This document shows positions 1 to 7,322 of a stretch of 64,000 nt of DNA, piece after piece. This DNA comes from Bdellovibrionales bacterium (GTDB lineage: Bacteria > Bdellovibrionota > Bdellovibrionia > Bdellovibrionales > Bdellovibrionaceae). A program made the translations under genes and the position numbers. Positions within the stretch are counted from its first letter, which is position 1; each line of letters opens with the position of its first letter. The stretch lies in the NCBI GenBank assembly GCA_018266295.1, contig JAFEAQ010000015.1, positions 1 to 64,000 on the forward strand. Direction: 5' to 3'. A model generated the notes under the pieces. It ran no database searches. It was given only the letters and a program-made list of their open reading frames with translations, and had not been told where the DNA came from.

Positions 1-3000
1 AATCAGCAATGCTTCCAACTATTAGTGCTGGCCAAGTTTGGGTTGGTAATGCAACAAATGGTGCTCAAGCATTTACGTTATCTGATGACGTAGCATCTGT
101 TTCTAACACAGGTGTTGTGACTTTAAGTTCTTCTGCGACGGGTTCTAATAAGTTACCACTTGCTGGTGGCACAATGAGTGGTGCTATCAATATGGGTGGA
201 AATAATATTTCTAACGCAGGGGATGTGAGCCTTGCTGCTGGTAAGTTCTTAGGTCTTGGTGTTGGTTCAACTGCAGGAACTGTCACAGGTCAGATGTGGT
301 ATGACTCAGGAGTTATTAAATACTTCGACGGCACGACGACTCAGTCTTTAGGTGTTGCCGGTGCTGGGATCACGTCACTTAATGGCTTAACTTCTGGTAC
401 GCAGTCTTTTGTTAACGGCACTTCTGGTACAGCTCCTGCGTTTAGCTCTGCGGGCTCAGCTCACACGTTAAATATCCCAATGGCTTCTAGCGCGTCTGTC
501 ACTGCCGGTCTTATTAGTAATGCGGATTACGCTTCAATGATGGCTAAGCAATCAAACTCATTGGCTGCTGGCCAAGTATGGGTGGGTAATGCTTCAGGTG
601 CTGCTCAGGCATTTAGTTTATCTGGAGACGTAGCATCTGTTTCTGATACCGGTCTAGTAACCGTTAATAAAACAATTTTAGGACTGTCTAATAAGCTTTT
701 GCAGCTTGATAACACAGGTATTGCGAACACTTATGGGGTTAGTATTTATGGCGCGACAAGCGGCCAGATTTACCTCTCAGCAATGCCAACCACAACGGTC
801 TATGGGTTGCGATTCCCAGCGACTGCGCCGGCCGATAATCAAATCCTAAAAGCAAACTCTTCTGGCGATCTTTCATGGGTCACTTACTTAGCAAATGTTT
901 CTGATTCAGCACCACTTACTAACGGCAAAATGTGGATCGGTAATGCTTCTGGTATTGCTTCTGAAGTAACGATGTCAGGGGATGCAACGATCACGAATGC
1001 AGGTCTTCTTTCACTTAAAAATACAGGCACTGCTGGTACATATACTAAAGTTATTACAGATGCACAAGGTCGCGTAACTTCGGGTTCTGCCCTTGCCGCT
1101 TCAGATATCACAACTGCACTTACATATACTCCAGTAAATAAAGCTGGCGATACTATGTCTGGTAGCTTGATGCTGGTTGCTGGTCAGTATTTGGGGCTGG
1201 GCTCAGGGTCAACTGCGGGTACAGTAGCCGGTCAGGTTTGGTACGATTCAGGAACTATTAAGTACTTCGATGGTACTACTGCGAAATCTCTTGGTGTTGC
1301 TGGTGCTGGTATTACTAGTATTAACGGTGCGACAGTGAGTTCTCAAACATTCCCAGTTCCTGGCACTTCGGGCACAGCTCCTGCTTGGTCTATCAATACA
1401 GGTGCCGGCTCACATACTCTGAATATCCCAATGGCTTCTGCCGCTTCAGTGACTGCGGGTCTTATCAGCAATACGGACTACGCCGCATTTAATGCGAAAA
1501 TGAGTAACTCATTAACTGGTGGTCAGATCTGGGTTGGTAACTCAGCTAACGTTGCTCAAGCAATGTCTTTGGGTGGTGACGTAGCCTCTGTATCTAACGC
1601 CGGTGTTGTAACTCTTAAATCAGTTGGCACAGTTGGTACTTACTGGAAAGTTGTGACGGATGCTCAAGGCCGTGTGACTTCCGGTGGCGCTCTTGCTTCT
1701 GGTGACGTAACGACGGCTCTTGGCTATACTCCAGCTTCGACAGGTTCATCTTATGTCAACGGCGGTAACTCATTTGCTGGTAACGCGACGATTGGTTTAA
1801 ATGATGCTTACACATTAGGATTCAAAACTGGCGGAACAACGCGCATGACTTTGGATGCCTCTGGCAATCTCGGTATCGGGACATCAGCGCCTGGTGCGGT
1901 ACTCGATGTACGCGGGCCTAGCGGTGGTGTGGGAGGAGATACCTTCCGGGTTTCTAATCCGTCTGGTCAGACTTATCTTTATGCCTTTTCGACAGCCGAT
2001 ACGTCGGCCTCGCTCGGAGCCTGGTCTTCATCAGGAAGCCAGAAACCTTTACTCATCAATGAAGGCGGCACCGCAAACGTCGGCATCGGTAACGTTGCCT
2101 CGCCTGGATCCCTTTTATCAGTGGCTGGCAACGTTGCTGTGGGGACTTATGCAAGCAGTGCTGCACCCACCAATGGATTGATCGTTTCTGGTAACGTCGG
2201 TATCGGGACGGCAAGCCCTGGCGTGGCTTTGGATGTAAGCTCTAAAACAGATGCGATCGGTTTACCAGTGGGTAATACTTCGCAACGTCCATCAAATGCT
2301 ACAGGGTTACTTCGCTACAATACAACGACAGGTGGCGTAGAATATAATAGCGGTTCTGCTTGGAACACTGTTGGCACAGCGCTCGGCTACACTCCAGTCA
2401 ATCGTGCTGGCGATACTATGTCTGGCAGTTTGATGCTTGCAGCTGGTCAGTATTTGGGTCTTGGCTCAGGATCCACTGCGGGAACAGTGGCCGGTCAAAT
2501 GTGGTATGACTCAGGCGTCATTAAATATTTTGATGGAACTACGGTAAAATCACTCGGTGTTGCGGGTGCTGGTATTACAAGCTTGAATGGCTTAACAGCG
2601 AATGTTCAATCCTTTGTAGTGGGTTCTGCAGGTAACGCTCCTGCGATTACGTCTGCAAGCTCAGCTCACACACTTGATATCCCAATGGCTTCGGCTTCTG
2701 GCTCTGTGACTGCGGGTCTTATTAGCAATACTGATTATGCAGCTTTCAATGCAAAAATGAGCAGTACATTAAACAGCACTCAAGTGTGGGTTGGTAATGG
2801 ATCAAATGCTGCCGAAGCACGTACTCTTTCTGGTGATATTTCAATTTCTAACGTAGGCCTTGTTACTGCTGATAAAACGACGATCGGCACTTCTTCAAAG
2901 CTCCAGCAATTGGATGCCTCAGGGGTCGCGAATGCTTTAGGTATTGGTTTAATCAATTCAGGCACTGTGCGCATTTTGCCAGCTACACCAACAACAGCTT

Positions 3001-5321
3001 CTTATGATTTGAGATTGCCTGCAGGATCTCCAGCGGCAAATCAGATCCTGCAATCAGATGCAACAGGGCAGATGTCCTGGGTCACTAACACAGCTTCAAG
3101 TGGTTATGTGAACGGTGGGAATACATTTGCTGGTAATGCGACCATCGGTTTGAATGATGCTTATACTCTGGGATTTAAAACGAACAACGCTACACGCATG
3201 ACTCTTGATGCGAGTGGAAATTTTGGTATTGGTACAGCGACTCCAACGGCGGCGTTGGATGTTAACGGTGCCATTAATATTTCTGGAACAAATGGTATTA
3301 GTTATCCAAGCACGGACTCAACGGCAGGATCAAGTATCGCAATTGGCGCCTCAGCTCTTGTGCAGCAGTATTCACTGGCTTCGGCCGCGTATAGAAATAC
3401 GGCGATCGGTTATCAGGCGATGAGCAACGCCGGTCTTACGACGGCAGCGACTAAAAATACGGCTGTGGGTTACAAGGCTGGGGCAAATAGTACAACGGGT
3501 TTTCAGAATACCTATATTGGTTACCAAGCGGGCTCAGCATCCGGCAGCGGTGCAACGCGCACTTCAACAGCTATTGGTGCTAATGCCACTGTGAATGCGG
3601 GCGGTTCCGGTTATGACGTGGTTCTTGTTGGTGCGAACTCTTCTTGCTGTACCGGTGGCACCGGTGGAGTTGTTGTCGGTGCTTCAGCAGCCGGAAGTGG
3701 TAATACAGGTATTGCTATAGGTAACTCAGCTTCTCAGGCGGGTGATAACTCTATCGCAATCGGTTATTCTTCTGCGACAGCTCAGGCGGGTGCGGTTGCT
3801 CTTGGTATTACTGCCAAAACTGCAAGTTACAACGGTGTCAGTATCGGTAGTGGTGCTGGTTCTACGAACGTCTCTGGGAATAACAACGTCCTCATTGGCG
3901 CCGGTGTTGGGAGTACAACTCTGACAACAGGCGCGCGCAATCTTTTAATTGGCGTGGATAGCTCAGTCGACTCAGTGGCGGCTTCGACAAGCAACTCTAT
4001 GAATATTGGTAACGCAATCTACGCAACCAATATGAAGAATGCAACGAACACGAGCGGCGTTGCAAAAATCGGTATTAATAATAATTCTCCTGCATCTATC
4101 TTTGATATCACAGATACTAGTACGACGACGAGCGCGCTCATCGTTCCGCGTGCAGCGACGTTTACCGGCACAACGGTGAATGGTATGATTCGTTATAATA
4201 CGACCTCCAGTCAGTTTGAGTTCTATCAAAATGGCGCGTGGGTGAATTACTCAACGGGCAGCGGTTCTAGCTTGGTGGTGGCTCCATCAACGGGTTCTCT
4301 CATTGGCGGCACCACGGCTGCGAGTTCTGTGACGACAGCGGGCTTAAATAACATCGCCTACGGTTACCAAACCTTGAATTCAAATACGACGGGAAGCGGA
4401 AATACAGCCATGGGGTATCAGGCGATCGCCTTAGATAATAGTGGCTATAACAACATCGCTATCGGTTATCAAGCAGCCTACAGTGGCGGCGGCAATGAAA
4501 ATACGACGGTCGGCTCTATGGCTTATTACAACTCAGACTCAGGAAATCAAAACGTCGCCATCGGTGGCTATGCATTGAATAGATCTCAAGGAGCCTCCGG
4601 CAATACAGCCGTAGGTTATGATGCTGGTGACATGCTCACCAGCGGTGCTGGTAACGTGATACTCGGCTGGGAAGCTGGGAATAATCTCACAACCGGCAGT
4701 AATAACATCGTTATCGGTTACAACATCGGTGCGCCAAGTGCGACGGGTAGTAATCAAATGACAATCGGTAATATGATTTACGGTACGGGCATCAATGGCA
4801 CAGGCACAACACCTTCAACCGGTAAGATCGGTATCGGGACAGCGTCGCCTTCTTACACCTTGTCAGTGAATGGGACTGCGAATGCAACCACATTCTTGAT
4901 GAATGGTTCGTCGAGTGCGCCAGCCGCGAAAGTCACCAATGCGGCTGAACCAGTTGCAGTCAGTGCGACAGCTGCGACAGGAACAGTGAATTTCTACTTA
5001 GCAAGCGGCGCAGTTCAATATTACACTTCGAATGCATCAGCAAACTGGACTCTTAATTGGGCCTGGTCGTCGGGCACGAGCTTGAATACGGCTCTTTCGA
5101 CAAATGACTCTGTCACGACAACATTCTTGGTCACTCAAGGTGCGACGGCGTACTATCCATCCGCGTTTACAATTGACGGAACAAGTGTGACGCCAAAATG
5201 GTTGGGTGGCTCTGCTCCAACGGCGGGAAATCCTTCCAGTATCGATGTCTATACATGCACTATTATTAAAACAGCGAGCGCAGTTTTCTCAGTGCTCTGC
5301 TCACAGGCACAATATAAGTGA
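1..5321 (+). CDS. Giant repetitive surface fibre protein (partial, 5' end outside window)
   Basis: The frame is open from the first bases and the first ATG (9) lies inside a repeat, so the true start is upstream; about 1770 residues are visible. Modules recur in order: a VWVGN...GDVASVS unit, a 'G.TMSG' unit and a 'WYDSG.IKYFDGTT' unit (near nt 180-640, 1140-1600 and 2400-2860), 'GIGT..P...LDV' linkers (near 1870, 2200, 3225, 4830), then two blocks of YadA-head-like 'NTAIGYQA' repeats (about nt 3390-4020 and 4340-4790). The last 120 residues form a different tip-like domain rich in aromatic residues, containing 'PKWLGGSAPT', as in phage fibre tips. No membrane anchor, S74 chaperone or autotransporter barrel is visible at the C-terminus. 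It resembles the mosaic trimeric fibres described in Bdellovibrio; a role in prey adhesion is inferred. A prophage origin is unlikely because no other phage genes are nearby. Confidence 0.8.
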   Translation, partial: SAMLPTISAGQVWVGNATNGAQAFTLSDDVASVSNTGVVTLSSSATGSNKLPLAGGTMSGAINMGGNNISNAGDVSLAAGKFLGLGVGSTAGTVTGQMWYDSGVIKYFDGTTTQSLGVAGAGITSLNGLTSGTQSFVNGTSGTAPAFSSAGSAHTLNIPMASSASVTAGLISNADYASMMAKQSNSLAAGQVWVGNASGAAQAFSLSGDVASVSDTGLVTVNKTILGLSNKLLQLDNTGIANTYGVSIYGATSGQIYLSAMPTTTVYGLRFPATAPADNQILKANSSGDLSWVTYLANVSDSAPLTNGKMWIGNASGIASEVTMSGDATITNAGLLSLKNTGTAGTYTKVITDAQGRVTSGSALAASDITTALTYTPVNKAGDTMSGSLMLVAGQYLGLGSGSTAGTVAGQVWYDSGTIKYFDGTTAKSLGVAGAGITSINGATVSSQTFPVPGTSGTAPAWSINTGAGSHTLNIPMASAASVTAGLISNTDYAAFNAKMSNSLTGGQIWVGNSANVAQAMSLGGDVASVSNAGVVTLKSVGTVGTYWKVVTDAQGRVTSGGALASGDVTTALGYTPASTGSSYVNGGNSFAGNATIGLNDAYTLGFKTGGTTRMTLDASGNLGIGTSAPGAVLDVRGPSGGVGGDTFRVSNPSGQTYLYAFSTADTSASLGAWSSSGSQKPLLINEGGTANVGIGNVASPGSLLSVAGNVAVGTYASSAAPTNGLIVSGNVGIGTASPGVALDVSSKTDAIGLPVGNTSQRPSNATGLLRYNTTTGGVEYNSGSAWNTVGTALGYTPVNRAGDTMSGSLMLAAGQYLGLGSGSTAGTVAGQMWYDSGVIKYFDGTTVKSLGVAGAGITSLNGLTANVQSFVVGSAGNAPAITSASSAHTLDIPMASASGSVTAGLISNTDYAAFNAKMSSTLNSTQVWVGNGSNAAEARTLSGDISISNVGLVTADKTTIGTSSKLQQLDASGVANALGIGLINSGTVRILPATPTTASYDLRLPAGSPAANQILQSDATGQMSWVTNTASSGYVNGGNTFAGNATIGLNDAYTLGFKTNNATRMTLDASGNFGIGTATPTAALDVNGAINISGTNGISYPSTDSTAGSSIAIGASALVQQYSLASAAYRNTAIGYQAMSNAGLTTAATKNTAVGYKAGANSTTGFQNTYIGYQAGSASGSGATRTSTAIGANATVNAGGSGYDVVLVGANSSCCTGGTGGVVVGASAAGSGNTGIAIGNSASQAGDNSIAIGYSSATAQAGAVALGITAKTASYNGVSIGSGAGSTNVSGNNNVLIGAGVGSTTLTTGARNLLIGVDSSVDSVAASTSNSMNIGNAIYATNMKNATNTSGVAKIGINNNSPASIFDITDTSTTTSALIVPRAATFTGTTVNGMIRYNTTSSQFEFYQNGAWVNYSTGSGSSLVVAPSTGSLIGGTTAASSVTTAGLNNIAYGYQTLNSNTTGSGNTAMGYQAIALDNSGYNNIAIGYQAAYSGGGNENTTVGSMAYYNSDSGNQNVAIGGYALNRSQGASGNTAVGYDAGDMLTSGAGNVILGWEAGNNLTTGSNNIVIGYNIGAPSATGSNQMTIGNMIYGTGINGTGTTPSTGKIGIGTASPSYTLSVNGTANATTFLMNGSSSAPAAKVTNAAEPVAVSATAATGTVNFYLASGAVQYYTSNASANWTLNWAWSSGTSLNTALSTNDSVTTTFLVTQGATAYYPSAFTIDGTSVTPKWLGGSAPTAGNPSSIDVYTCTIIKTASAVFSVLCSQAQYK

Positions 5322-5328
5322 TGATCTT

Positions 5329-7290
5329 ATGCTGCTAAACTGGAAATGTCTTTTCATCGCTGCAATTTTTGTGATCCCTTCGATCGCAATGCCGGGCAGT
5401 CTCGCAACCCGTGGCGCCTTTTCGGCTCAGGGTTTTTTAGTCGGCAGAGGGCAAGTCGTAGTGTATCTCACGAGCACAGGCACCACCACTTGGACTGTGC
5501 CGGCCAATTGGAATTCTTATAATAATAAAATCGAAGTGATTGGCGGCGGCGGTGGCGGAGGCGGCGGCAGCGGTGCGAATAACCAAGCTGGGGCCGGTGG
5601 TGGCGGAGCTTATGCTGTTGCGACCAACGTAACACTGACCCCCAATGCGACGGTCACAATTCAAGTGGGCACAGGAGGAGCCGGCGGAGCCCCCAATAAT
5701 GGTGCCGGTGGAAATGGTGGCGACACTTGGTTTAATGGTGCGAGTTGTGCTTCCTCTTCAGTTTGTGCAAAAGGCGGAAAAGGTGCCATTCCCGCAACAG
5801 ACTCCACAGGTGGTGCCGGTGGTTTAGCGAGCAGCTCAATCGGTGCGATAGCTTTTAACGGTGGCAACGGTGGTGGTGGAAGTAACATGTCCTACAGTGG
5901 TCTTGGTGGCGGCGGCAGCGGTGGTCCGTTGGGTCCCGGAGGAAATGGCGGCAGTGAAACCGTGGGCAGCCTCAGTCTGACAGGAGCCTCTGGTGGCGGA
6001 GCAAGCAGTGGTGGTGCTAATGCAGCAACGCTGACTTCGGTGACGACTCCAGGATTGGCTGGCGCGAATAATATCTCAGGCACGGGCGGCGGAGCTGGTG
6101 GCGCATCCGCGGGAGCTGCCGGAACCGCGGGAACTTTGGGCGGTGGTGGTGGCGGCGGCGGCGGTCGCACAAGCTCAACGGGAACTGCCGGAGTTGGCGG
6201 AGCTGGCAGTATGGGAAGTGATTGGGGATCTCTCTACGGAAGCGGTTCCGGTGGCGGAGGTGGTGGCGGCACCAATAGCGGTACTGCCAACGCAGCTGCC
6301 GGCGGCAATGGCGGGCTCTATGGTGGCGGCGGCGGAAGTGGCGGCTGCAGTGCCGGAGGAACCAATGGTGCCGGCGGAGCAGGAGCTCAAGGAATCATTG
6401 TCATAACTTATTACATACCTGTTGCCACAACTGTGGCGGTGGTTCTGACGAGTGGCACGTCGTGGACTGTTCCTGCAAACTGGAATAGCTCCAGCAACTC
6501 AATTGAATGTATTGGTGGGGGCGGTACTGGTGCGAGCGGCGGTGGCGGGAACTCTGGCACCGGAGGCGGCGGTGGTGCCTACGCGAAAATTACAAATCTT
6601 GCTTTAACGGGTGGAAACACAGTGACCTATCAGATTGGTGCGGGCGGAAGTTCGGGAACCTCTAATGCCACAGATTCTTGGTTTAACGGCACGTCATGTG
6701 CGGCCGCCTCGGTTTGTGCAAAAGGCGGAGTTTCCGGAGGCAATGGTGGCACTGGTGGCAGTTCTTCAAGTAGCGTTGGTGCGACAAAATATGCCGGAGG
6801 GGCGGGCGGTGTCGGTGGTGCTGGGACACAAGGTGGCGGCGGCGGCGGCGGTGCCGCTGGGCCCAATGGCATTGGTGGTGCCGGTGGCTCGGGAGCTTCC
6901 AGTACGAGTACCGGTGCTGGCGGCGGCGGCAGTGGCGGCGGATCCGCGGGCGGCGCTTCTTCTGGTTCAACAGCAGGTGCCGGCGGAAATAACAGCGCCG
7001 GCAGTGGCAGCGGGAGTGCTGGCGTCAACGGTAGCAATGGAATAAATGGTGGAGGCGGCGGTGGCGGCGGTTCGGGCAGTGTGACCGGTACCGGAGGTAA
7101 CGGCAGTATGAGCAGCGATATGACTGCGGGTTCTCTCGCAGTAGGCCCAGGTGGTGGTGGCGGCGGCGGTACAGGGAATGTTGCTGGCGGAACCGGCGGC
7201 GCCTTTGGCGGCGGTGGCGGCGGCGGTGGCCCCAACGGCTCGGGAGGCAAAGGAAAATCAGGTCTTTGCGTGATTAGGTATTCTCCGTAA
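5329..7290 (+). CDS. Secreted polyglycine-rich adhesin-like protein
   Basis: The protein has 653 residues from ATG 5329. A longer reading from 5206 would overlap the fibre gene and lose the signal peptide, which is residues 1-20 or so (MLLNWKCLFIAAIFVIPSIA). It has two homologous halves, each opening with 'TWTVPANWNS' and a strand before a run of glycines ('IEVIGGGG' and 'IECIGGGG'), then many GGGG blocks, and each ending in a hydrophobic strand ('IIVITYY', 'LCVIRYS'). Each half has a short Cys loop (SC...SVCAKGG). This matches the glycine-rich domain of phage tail tips, and polyglycine-II helices are known in the gp38 adhesin of T-even-like phages. It lies 7 nt after the fibre gene, as gene 38 follows gene 37. 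A role as tip adhesin for the fibre is an inference. Confidence 0.75.
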   Translation: MLLNWKCLFIAAIFVIPSIAMPGSLATRGAFSAQGFLVGRGQVVVYLTSTGTTTWTVPANWNSYNNKIEVIGGGGGGGGGSGANNQAGAGGGGAYAVATNVTLTPNATVTIQVGTGGAGGAPNNGAGGNGGDTWFNGASCASSSVCAKGGKGAIPATDSTGGAGGLASSSIGAIAFNGGNGGGGSNMSYSGLGGGGSGGPLGPGGNGGSETVGSLSLTGASGGGASSGGANAATLTSVTTPGLAGANNISGTGGGAGGASAGAAGTAGTLGGGGGGGGGRTSSTGTAGVGGAGSMGSDWGSLYGSGSGGGGGGGTNSGTANAAAGGNGGLYGGGGGSGGCSAGGTNGAGGAGAQGIIVITYYIPVATTVAVVLTSGTSWTVPANWNSSSNSIECIGGGGTGASGGGGNSGTGGGGGAYAKITNLALTGGNTVTYQIGAGGSSGTSNATDSWFNGTSCAAASVCAKGGVSGGNGGTGGSSSSSVGATKYAGGAGGVGGAGTQGGGGGGGAAGPNGIGGAGGSGASSTSTGAGGGGSGGGSAGGASSGSTAGAGGNNSAGSGSGSAGVNGSNGINGGGGGGGGSGSVTGTGGNGSMSSDMTAGSLAVGPGGGGGGGTGNVAGGTGGAFGGGGGGGGPNGSGGKGKSGLCVIRYSP

Positions 7291-7295
7291 ATAAA

Positions 7296-7322
7296 ACCTT
7301 CGGCCTCTGCGAAGCCGAAGGT
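7296..7322 (-). terminator. Hairpin terminator of metG
   Basis: A 9-bp perfect stem (7296-7304 with 7314-7322) and 9-nt loop. Read on the minus strand it is followed by TTTTATTT, so it suits the end of metG; the fibre operon ends just before it on the other strand. Confidence 0.6.

Follow-up and report, generated by a model that had tools for sequence, protein, structure and literature searches.

MAT (mosaic adhesive trimer) fibres form a family of surface adhesins of Bdellovibrio, in which a signal peptide and a conserved N-terminal domain are combined with varied C-terminal tips (PMC10769870). MAT fibres, with single-chain tips, have been proposed as the answer to the open question of how predatory bacteria recognise their varied prey. 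The fibre we investigated resembles the MAT fibres of Bdellovibrio bacteriovorus in having a signal peptide, an N-terminal domain, a repetitive shaft and a swappable tip; however, the described MAT tips belong to the same chain, whereas our fibre ends in a socket-like tip of phage type, and its ligand-binding part is apparently a second protein, the cap. The text of the MAT paper mentions neither glycine nor gp38 nor an operon (PMC10769870).

Salmonella phage S16 and other T-even phages also place a gene for a glycine-rich capping protein behind the fibre gene. The gp38 protein of S16 attaches through a helical domain bearing three tryptophans and carries a polyglycine sandwich on a beta-helix (PMC6851490), whereas the cap studied here comprises a putative 18-residue plug and two TNF-like/glycine-rich domains. 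The fold predicted for these domains is shared with gp24 of cyanophage Pam3 and with ALK/LTK. Pam3 gp24, whose glycine-rich end was proposed to bind the host receptor, includes a shaft of its own and attaches to the baseplate (PMC9608196), whereas the domain in our locus occurs twice, on a separate secreted protein. Two named phages, Podoviridae ctXG6705 (MW202481) and Roseobacter phage CRP-3, encode a tip about 60% identical to ours that is followed by a glycine-rich protein with a GAKGFG/SARGF-like motif at its N-terminus. This protein begins about 8 nt after the tip in ctXG6705, where it is annotated as "phage tail fiber adhesin gp38"; in CRP-3 about 200 nt separate the two, as against 7 nt here. 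Phage caps, with the clear exception of phage contig L043, have no signal peptide, and their tip belongs to a phage fibre, whereas the cap studied here carries a signal peptide. We consider it likely that the fibre and the cap together serve a Bdellovibrionaceae bacterium as a surface adhesin in two parts, with the cap docked on the phage-type tip. With such a device, a bacterium would clearly have adopted a means of attachment from phages, and a cap with its own gene, docked through a short peptide, would add a second, easily exchanged layer of specificity.

The window, the whole stretch of 64,000 nucleotides that was analysed, starts with base 1 of contig C15, and the fibre frame is open from its TGA at 5319-5321 back to this edge (Table 1). 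The fibre is thus incomplete in the window. The preliminary description had placed a fibre gene here; the open reading frame and the gene order hold, and the missing N-terminus lies on contig C8. Read on the minus strand, the beginning of C8 shares 25 identical bases with the beginning of C15, and the frame continues across this overlap. From this overlap we infer a join of the two contigs that gives a fibre of 2236 aa with no internal stops. The other fibre-bearing contig ends tested (the start of C4 and the end of C8) have no comparable overlap with C15. The terminator-like stem listed behind the cap gene comes from a scan that overall performed at chance level (3 found, 2.2 expected).

Table 1. 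Features of the fibre and cap genes. Positions are those of the window, except for the part on contig C8.
Feature	Position	Strand	Basis
Fibre N-terminal part, about 464 aa	C8:1-1415	minus	Exact in-frame overlap with C15
MAT-type fibre, C-terminal 1772 aa	3-5321	+	Open reading frame to window edge and C8 overlap
Fibre shaft stretch related to Bd3182 MAT region	3147-3443	+	phmmer against PDB 8ojn
Phage-derived tip, putative socket domain, 139 aa	4902-5318	+	70% identity to L043; AF2 pLDDT 87
7-nt intergenic spacer	5322-5328	+	Sequence; phage pairs -1 to +13 nt, commonest 9
Secreted glycine-rich cap protein, 653 aa	5329-7290	+	Open reading frame from ATG at 5329; Gly_rich_2 E 2e-7
Predicted Sec signal peptide MLLNWKCLFIAAIFVIPSIA	5329-5388	+	Putative cleavage after SIA
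Docking-peptide candidate MPGSLATRGAFSAQGFLVG	5389-5445	+	20.5 bits against phage cap profile
TNF-like/glycine-rich domain 1	5452-6423	+	AF2 model against Pam3 gp24 fibre
TNF-like/glycine-rich domain 2	6424-7287	+	Nearest are glycine-rich paralogues of the same genome
Terminator-like stem between cap gene and convergent metG	7296-7322		12-pair stem, T tail on minus strand

Judged by its sequence, the joined fibre is a MAT fibre: a protein ending in Bd2734 has a homologous N-terminal domain, and the shaft of our fibre matches Bd3182. The part encoded on C8 consists of a signal peptide followed by the conserved beta-rich domain of about 130 aa that characterises MAT fibres. Homologues of this domain occur in 55 of the 66 genomes of the family, with up to 29 copies per genome, and in one of these proteins, from genome G004, the C-terminus is Bd2734 (PDB 8okw, E 2.6e-100), a MAT of solved structure. 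The fibre sequence is repetitive; its residues 1049-1147 match the solved Bd3182 region (phmmer, PDB 8ojn, E 4e-7), and the shaft also aligns with bd2133 (E 0.0096). The flanking genes are of housekeeping, chromosomal character (ubiE/aroF-like genes upstream on C8, metG downstream), and none of them is a further phage gene. That the pair might be a decaying prophage remnant without cellular function is suggested by the phage derivation of the tip and the docking peptide; however, the fibre carries a signal peptide and the MAT N-terminal domain, the two genes keep open frames over about 8.7 kb, and the surroundings are those of an ordinary chromosome. We regard a prophage remnant as highly improbable and reject it on account of the flanking genes and the MAT N-terminus, which agrees with the earlier suggestion that the pair is used by the bacterium.

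The phage contribution to the fibre is found at its end. The last approximately 138 residues match phrog_5906 (E 1e-24), and this match, together with the repeats, bears out the preliminary description of a repetitive, phage-like fibre with a tip-like C-terminus. In IMG/VR the tip has at least 591 matches, the best of them in phage contig L043, and it is homologous over its full length to the tips of 80 viral loci (58-70% identity). Among bacteria, the domain is absent from the 368 other genomes of the phylum (369 were searched, this one included), and a profile made from 40 tips and searched across the order matched this genome alone. A match in genome G043 turned out to be spurious on reading, as it sits in a barrel-like protein. 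A scan of genome contigs returned one phage-like MAG contig. The folds nearest to the tip model are phage spike and adaptor domains, namely the Pa223 spike (Z 7.6), the N-terminal part of CBA120 TSP4 (Z 6.0) and, lower, T4 gp10 and gp9 (Z 4.8); these Z values are modest and suggestive only of an adaptor-type domain. A phage origin of both the tip and the N-terminal peptide of the cap is well supported. As L043 is the closest relative of the tip and encodes signal peptides on both its fibre and its cap, the donor may have resembled a phage of the L043 type.

We defined the tip-cap module from the viral loci. At the 80 loci the tip is almost always followed, between -1 and +13 nt from it and mostly at 9, by a cap gene that opens with MPxxxTRGAASARGFG or a variant. 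With a docking-peptide profile from 36 phage cap N-termini and a threshold of 17 bits, 66 starts were found directly behind a tip at these loci and 2 elsewhere among 1500 open reading frames; the profile was built from these same cap genes, so that the position counts for more than the number. The bodies that follow the peptide vary: 41 of 74 are glycine-rich, and the others have laminin-G, weak propeller repeats or matches to DUF7483. In 59 non-redundant phage pairs the peptide covaries with the tip (Mantel r 0.31, p 0.0002), whereas the cap body does not (Mantel r 0.07, p 0.09), and the partial correlations with the tip are 0.30 for the peptide and 0.004 for the body. Even between caps with unrelated bodies the peptide is still 44% shared. 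The simplest interpretation is a plug formed by the peptide and a socket formed by the tip; part of the covariation could also stem from close linkage or from recombination at the gene junction. This socket-and-plug module, present in many phages, is apparently undescribed, and a literature search with the sequence strings of the docking peptide found no paper. A module defined by its peptide would make receptor-binding proteins easier to spot in phage genomes. The near-universal occurrence of the same two-gene order behind the phage tip also indicates that the phage-style two-part adhesin proposed in the preliminary description is probably right.

The cap gene of our locus starts with a signal peptide of the Sec type (crude hydropathy score 3.3, basic n-region, AxA-like site), and right behind it the protein reads TRGAFSAQGF, within MPGSLATRGAFSAQGFLVG. 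The signal peptide is placed exactly where a phage cap protein would begin, an arrangement also present in L043. The score of the candidate peptide, 20.5 bits, falls in the range from 17 to 39.5 spanned by 34 of the 36 phage representatives. Among 99,486 windows taken from the other open frames of the genome the highest score is 12.1, and only one in 200,000 shuffled sequences is on a par with the candidate. Compared with the phage consensus, the peptide has one extra residue, and L replaces the conserved G after GF. The peptide region is of low confidence in the monomer model of the cap.

The body of the cap matches Gly_rich_2 (PF21722; 31.7 bits, cut-off 24.3, E 2e-7) and consists of two repeats that are 53% identical in alignment and also align with phage glycine-rich caps. 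The secreted, two-domain glycine-rich protein noted earlier at a spacing of 7 nt is thereby recovered in each of its parts: signal peptide, repeats and domain match. The AF2 model of domain 1 (pLDDT 70 overall and about 90 in the beta core, low in the glycine runs and the plug) superimposes on Pam3 gp24 with a VIA Z of 20.6 (3.2 A over 209 residues), followed by the Bxb1 tail tip (Z 15.2) and the glycine-rich domains of ALK/LTK (Z about 7-9). In domain 2, cap residues 371-441 match Pam3 gp24 (E 0.005), and about 100 residues are 45-60% identical to paralogues of the same genome. As domain 2 is closest to these paralogues, the cap may combine a plug from phages with a body of local origin. A viral tblastn search with the whole cap protein as query gave no match, probably as a result of low-complexity filtering, and a scan of viral sequences with domain 1 returned one locus (L124).

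The kinship with T-even gp38 that had been suggested for this protein does not hold. The first 30 residues of the mature protein contain no tryptophan, no helix is predicted for its N-terminus, no gp38 model is among the Pfam matches listed for the cap at E 1 or better, and the body is modelled as TNF-like/glycine-rich domains, with low confidence in the glycine-rich parts. S16 gp38 (PDB 6f45) is not among the fold matches of the cap, which by itself excludes nothing. We reject the kinship because the tryptophan-bearing helical attachment domain is missing. The best PHROG match of the cap is phrog_863 (E 1e-10), which bears the name "tail fiber assembly"; T4 gp38 serves in assembly (PMC6851490). 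One could therefore assume that the cap, as T4 gp38 or Tfa proteins do, helps the tip to fold or assemble and stays outside the mature fibre. However, the cap is large, has its own signal peptide and contains two domains of a receptor-binding fold; in phages this peptide precedes bodies of the laminin-G, propeller or glycine-rich type, as adhesins would have; and in relatives the Gly_rich_2 domain is covalently fused to fibres. A mere assembly role is quite improbable.

These fusions are found in at least six proteins within the order, in which Gly_rich_2 forms the C-terminal part of MAT-like fibres. In other cases a separate Gly_rich_2 gene lies directly behind the fibre gene (L139/L190, L127 and L144/L197), with a spacing of 12 nt in genome G016, 29 nt in G022, where two such genes stand in tandem, and an overlap in G073. 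Conserved adjacency in relatives, which the preliminary description had named as a check, was thus found as pairs and fusions of fibres with glycine-rich proteins and is conserved in phages, whereas the tip itself occurs in no bacterial relative among the 369 genomes. Two-gene fibres are a minority among the MAT genes sampled: a directly adjacent secreted gene accompanies 1 of 20 sampled in relatives. The own genome has a second MAT gene (on contig C19), which is followed by a gene for a secreted RCC1 protein. No paper that links MAT proteins to a glycine-rich partner turned up in a search of the literature.

When the own genome was searched at the DNA level with the glycine-rich region, most hits were short runs of glycine codons, yet the search revealed the paralogues. 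A dozen or so of these glycine-rich proteins stand alone, and most are not beside a fibre gene. This distribution, and the fact that domain 2 is most like those stand-alone paralogues, would fit an independent secreted or surface glycine-rich adhesin or matrix protein, for which the place behind the fibre gene provides co-expression only. However, among the paralogues read this cap is the only one that carries the phage peptide instead of the leader PFxFWK and the only one located behind a phage-type tip, and the coincidence of both at one junction makes an independent cap unlikely.

Under the favoured reading of a cap docked on the fibre, the MAT fibre would be exported and held at the cell through its conserved N-terminal domain, with the phage-derived tip at its end. 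The tip would work as a socket and not as the receptor-binding end. The cap would be exported separately by Sec, and after cleavage of the signal peptide its N-terminus, MPGSLATRGAFSAQGF, would fit into the tip as a plug of the phage type. Behind it, the two TNF-like/glycine-rich domains in tandem would face outward to bind a ligand, which most likely sits on the surface of prey. We infer the physical docking, its stoichiometry, the surface display and the prey ligand from these comparisons; by analogy with the MAT family, prey contact is a plausible role for this adhesin.

The PFxFWK leader may point to a wider use of such peptides. Searched as a DNA pattern, it gives 17 matches in the own genome, none in the reversed control and 0-3 in other genomes. 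The proteins read are secreted, and their bodies are glycine-rich, RCC1, kelch, laminin-G, lectin-like or repetitive, a repertoire that resembles that of the phage caps. Plug and socket could be a general system of phages, and of predatory bacteria that copied it, in which fibres ending in a socket are paired with exchangeable caps that have a short N-terminal plug in common; PFxFWK would then be a second plug, and caps would be exchanged in trans; we offer this tentatively and would not bet on it. If PFxFWK were a second plug, many caps could be mounted on the same fibres, which would allow a combinatorial recognition of prey. In the pair from genome G016, the cap gene has a leader related to PFxFWK (LIPFAMM).

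The PFxFWK leader, a motif behind the signal peptide, is common to about 17 secreted proteins of the bacterium's own genome, whose diverse, adhesin-like bodies are glycine-rich, RCC1, kelch, laminin-G or lectin-like; some of the RCC1-type proteins carry Tat-like RRQFL signals. The glycine-rich PFxFWK genes often have two kinds of neighbour, a small gene resembling HTH regulators (SLRAFARD...) and one for a secreted GNGG-type protein, which suggests a recurrent gene set.

Further mosaic adhesive trimer (MAT) fibres, whose tips are of another type, precede a secreted RCC1-repeat gene on contig C19 and a secreted gene in genome G033, and these possibly represent additional fibre-cap pairs. Sec signal peptides on fibre and cap, or on several successive genes, occur on phage contigs. 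In genome G064, a type IV pilin-like N-terminus (ISLVEVLVASGVAIVALLAF) is fused to a Gly_rich_2 domain.

Loci and coordinates of the features described
Feature	Locus and positions
PFxFWK proteins, own genome	L015, L016, L018-L022, L180-L189
Example PFxFWK genes, own genome	L181:2199-3371; L186:1772-2536; L188:931-3711
Glycine-rich PFxFWK loci with HTH regulator-like and GNGG-type neighbours	L016:7631-10099; L018:3083-6259; L021:5132-8061; L022:7030-9532; L183:1775-4221
MAT fibre, RCC1-repeat gene (C19)	L035:1-8842
MAT fibre, secreted gene (G033)	L230:3-1571
Sec signal peptides, phage contigs	L043:1550-5403; L124:1202-5017
Pilin-like N-terminus with Gly_rich_2 (G064)	L131:919-2133
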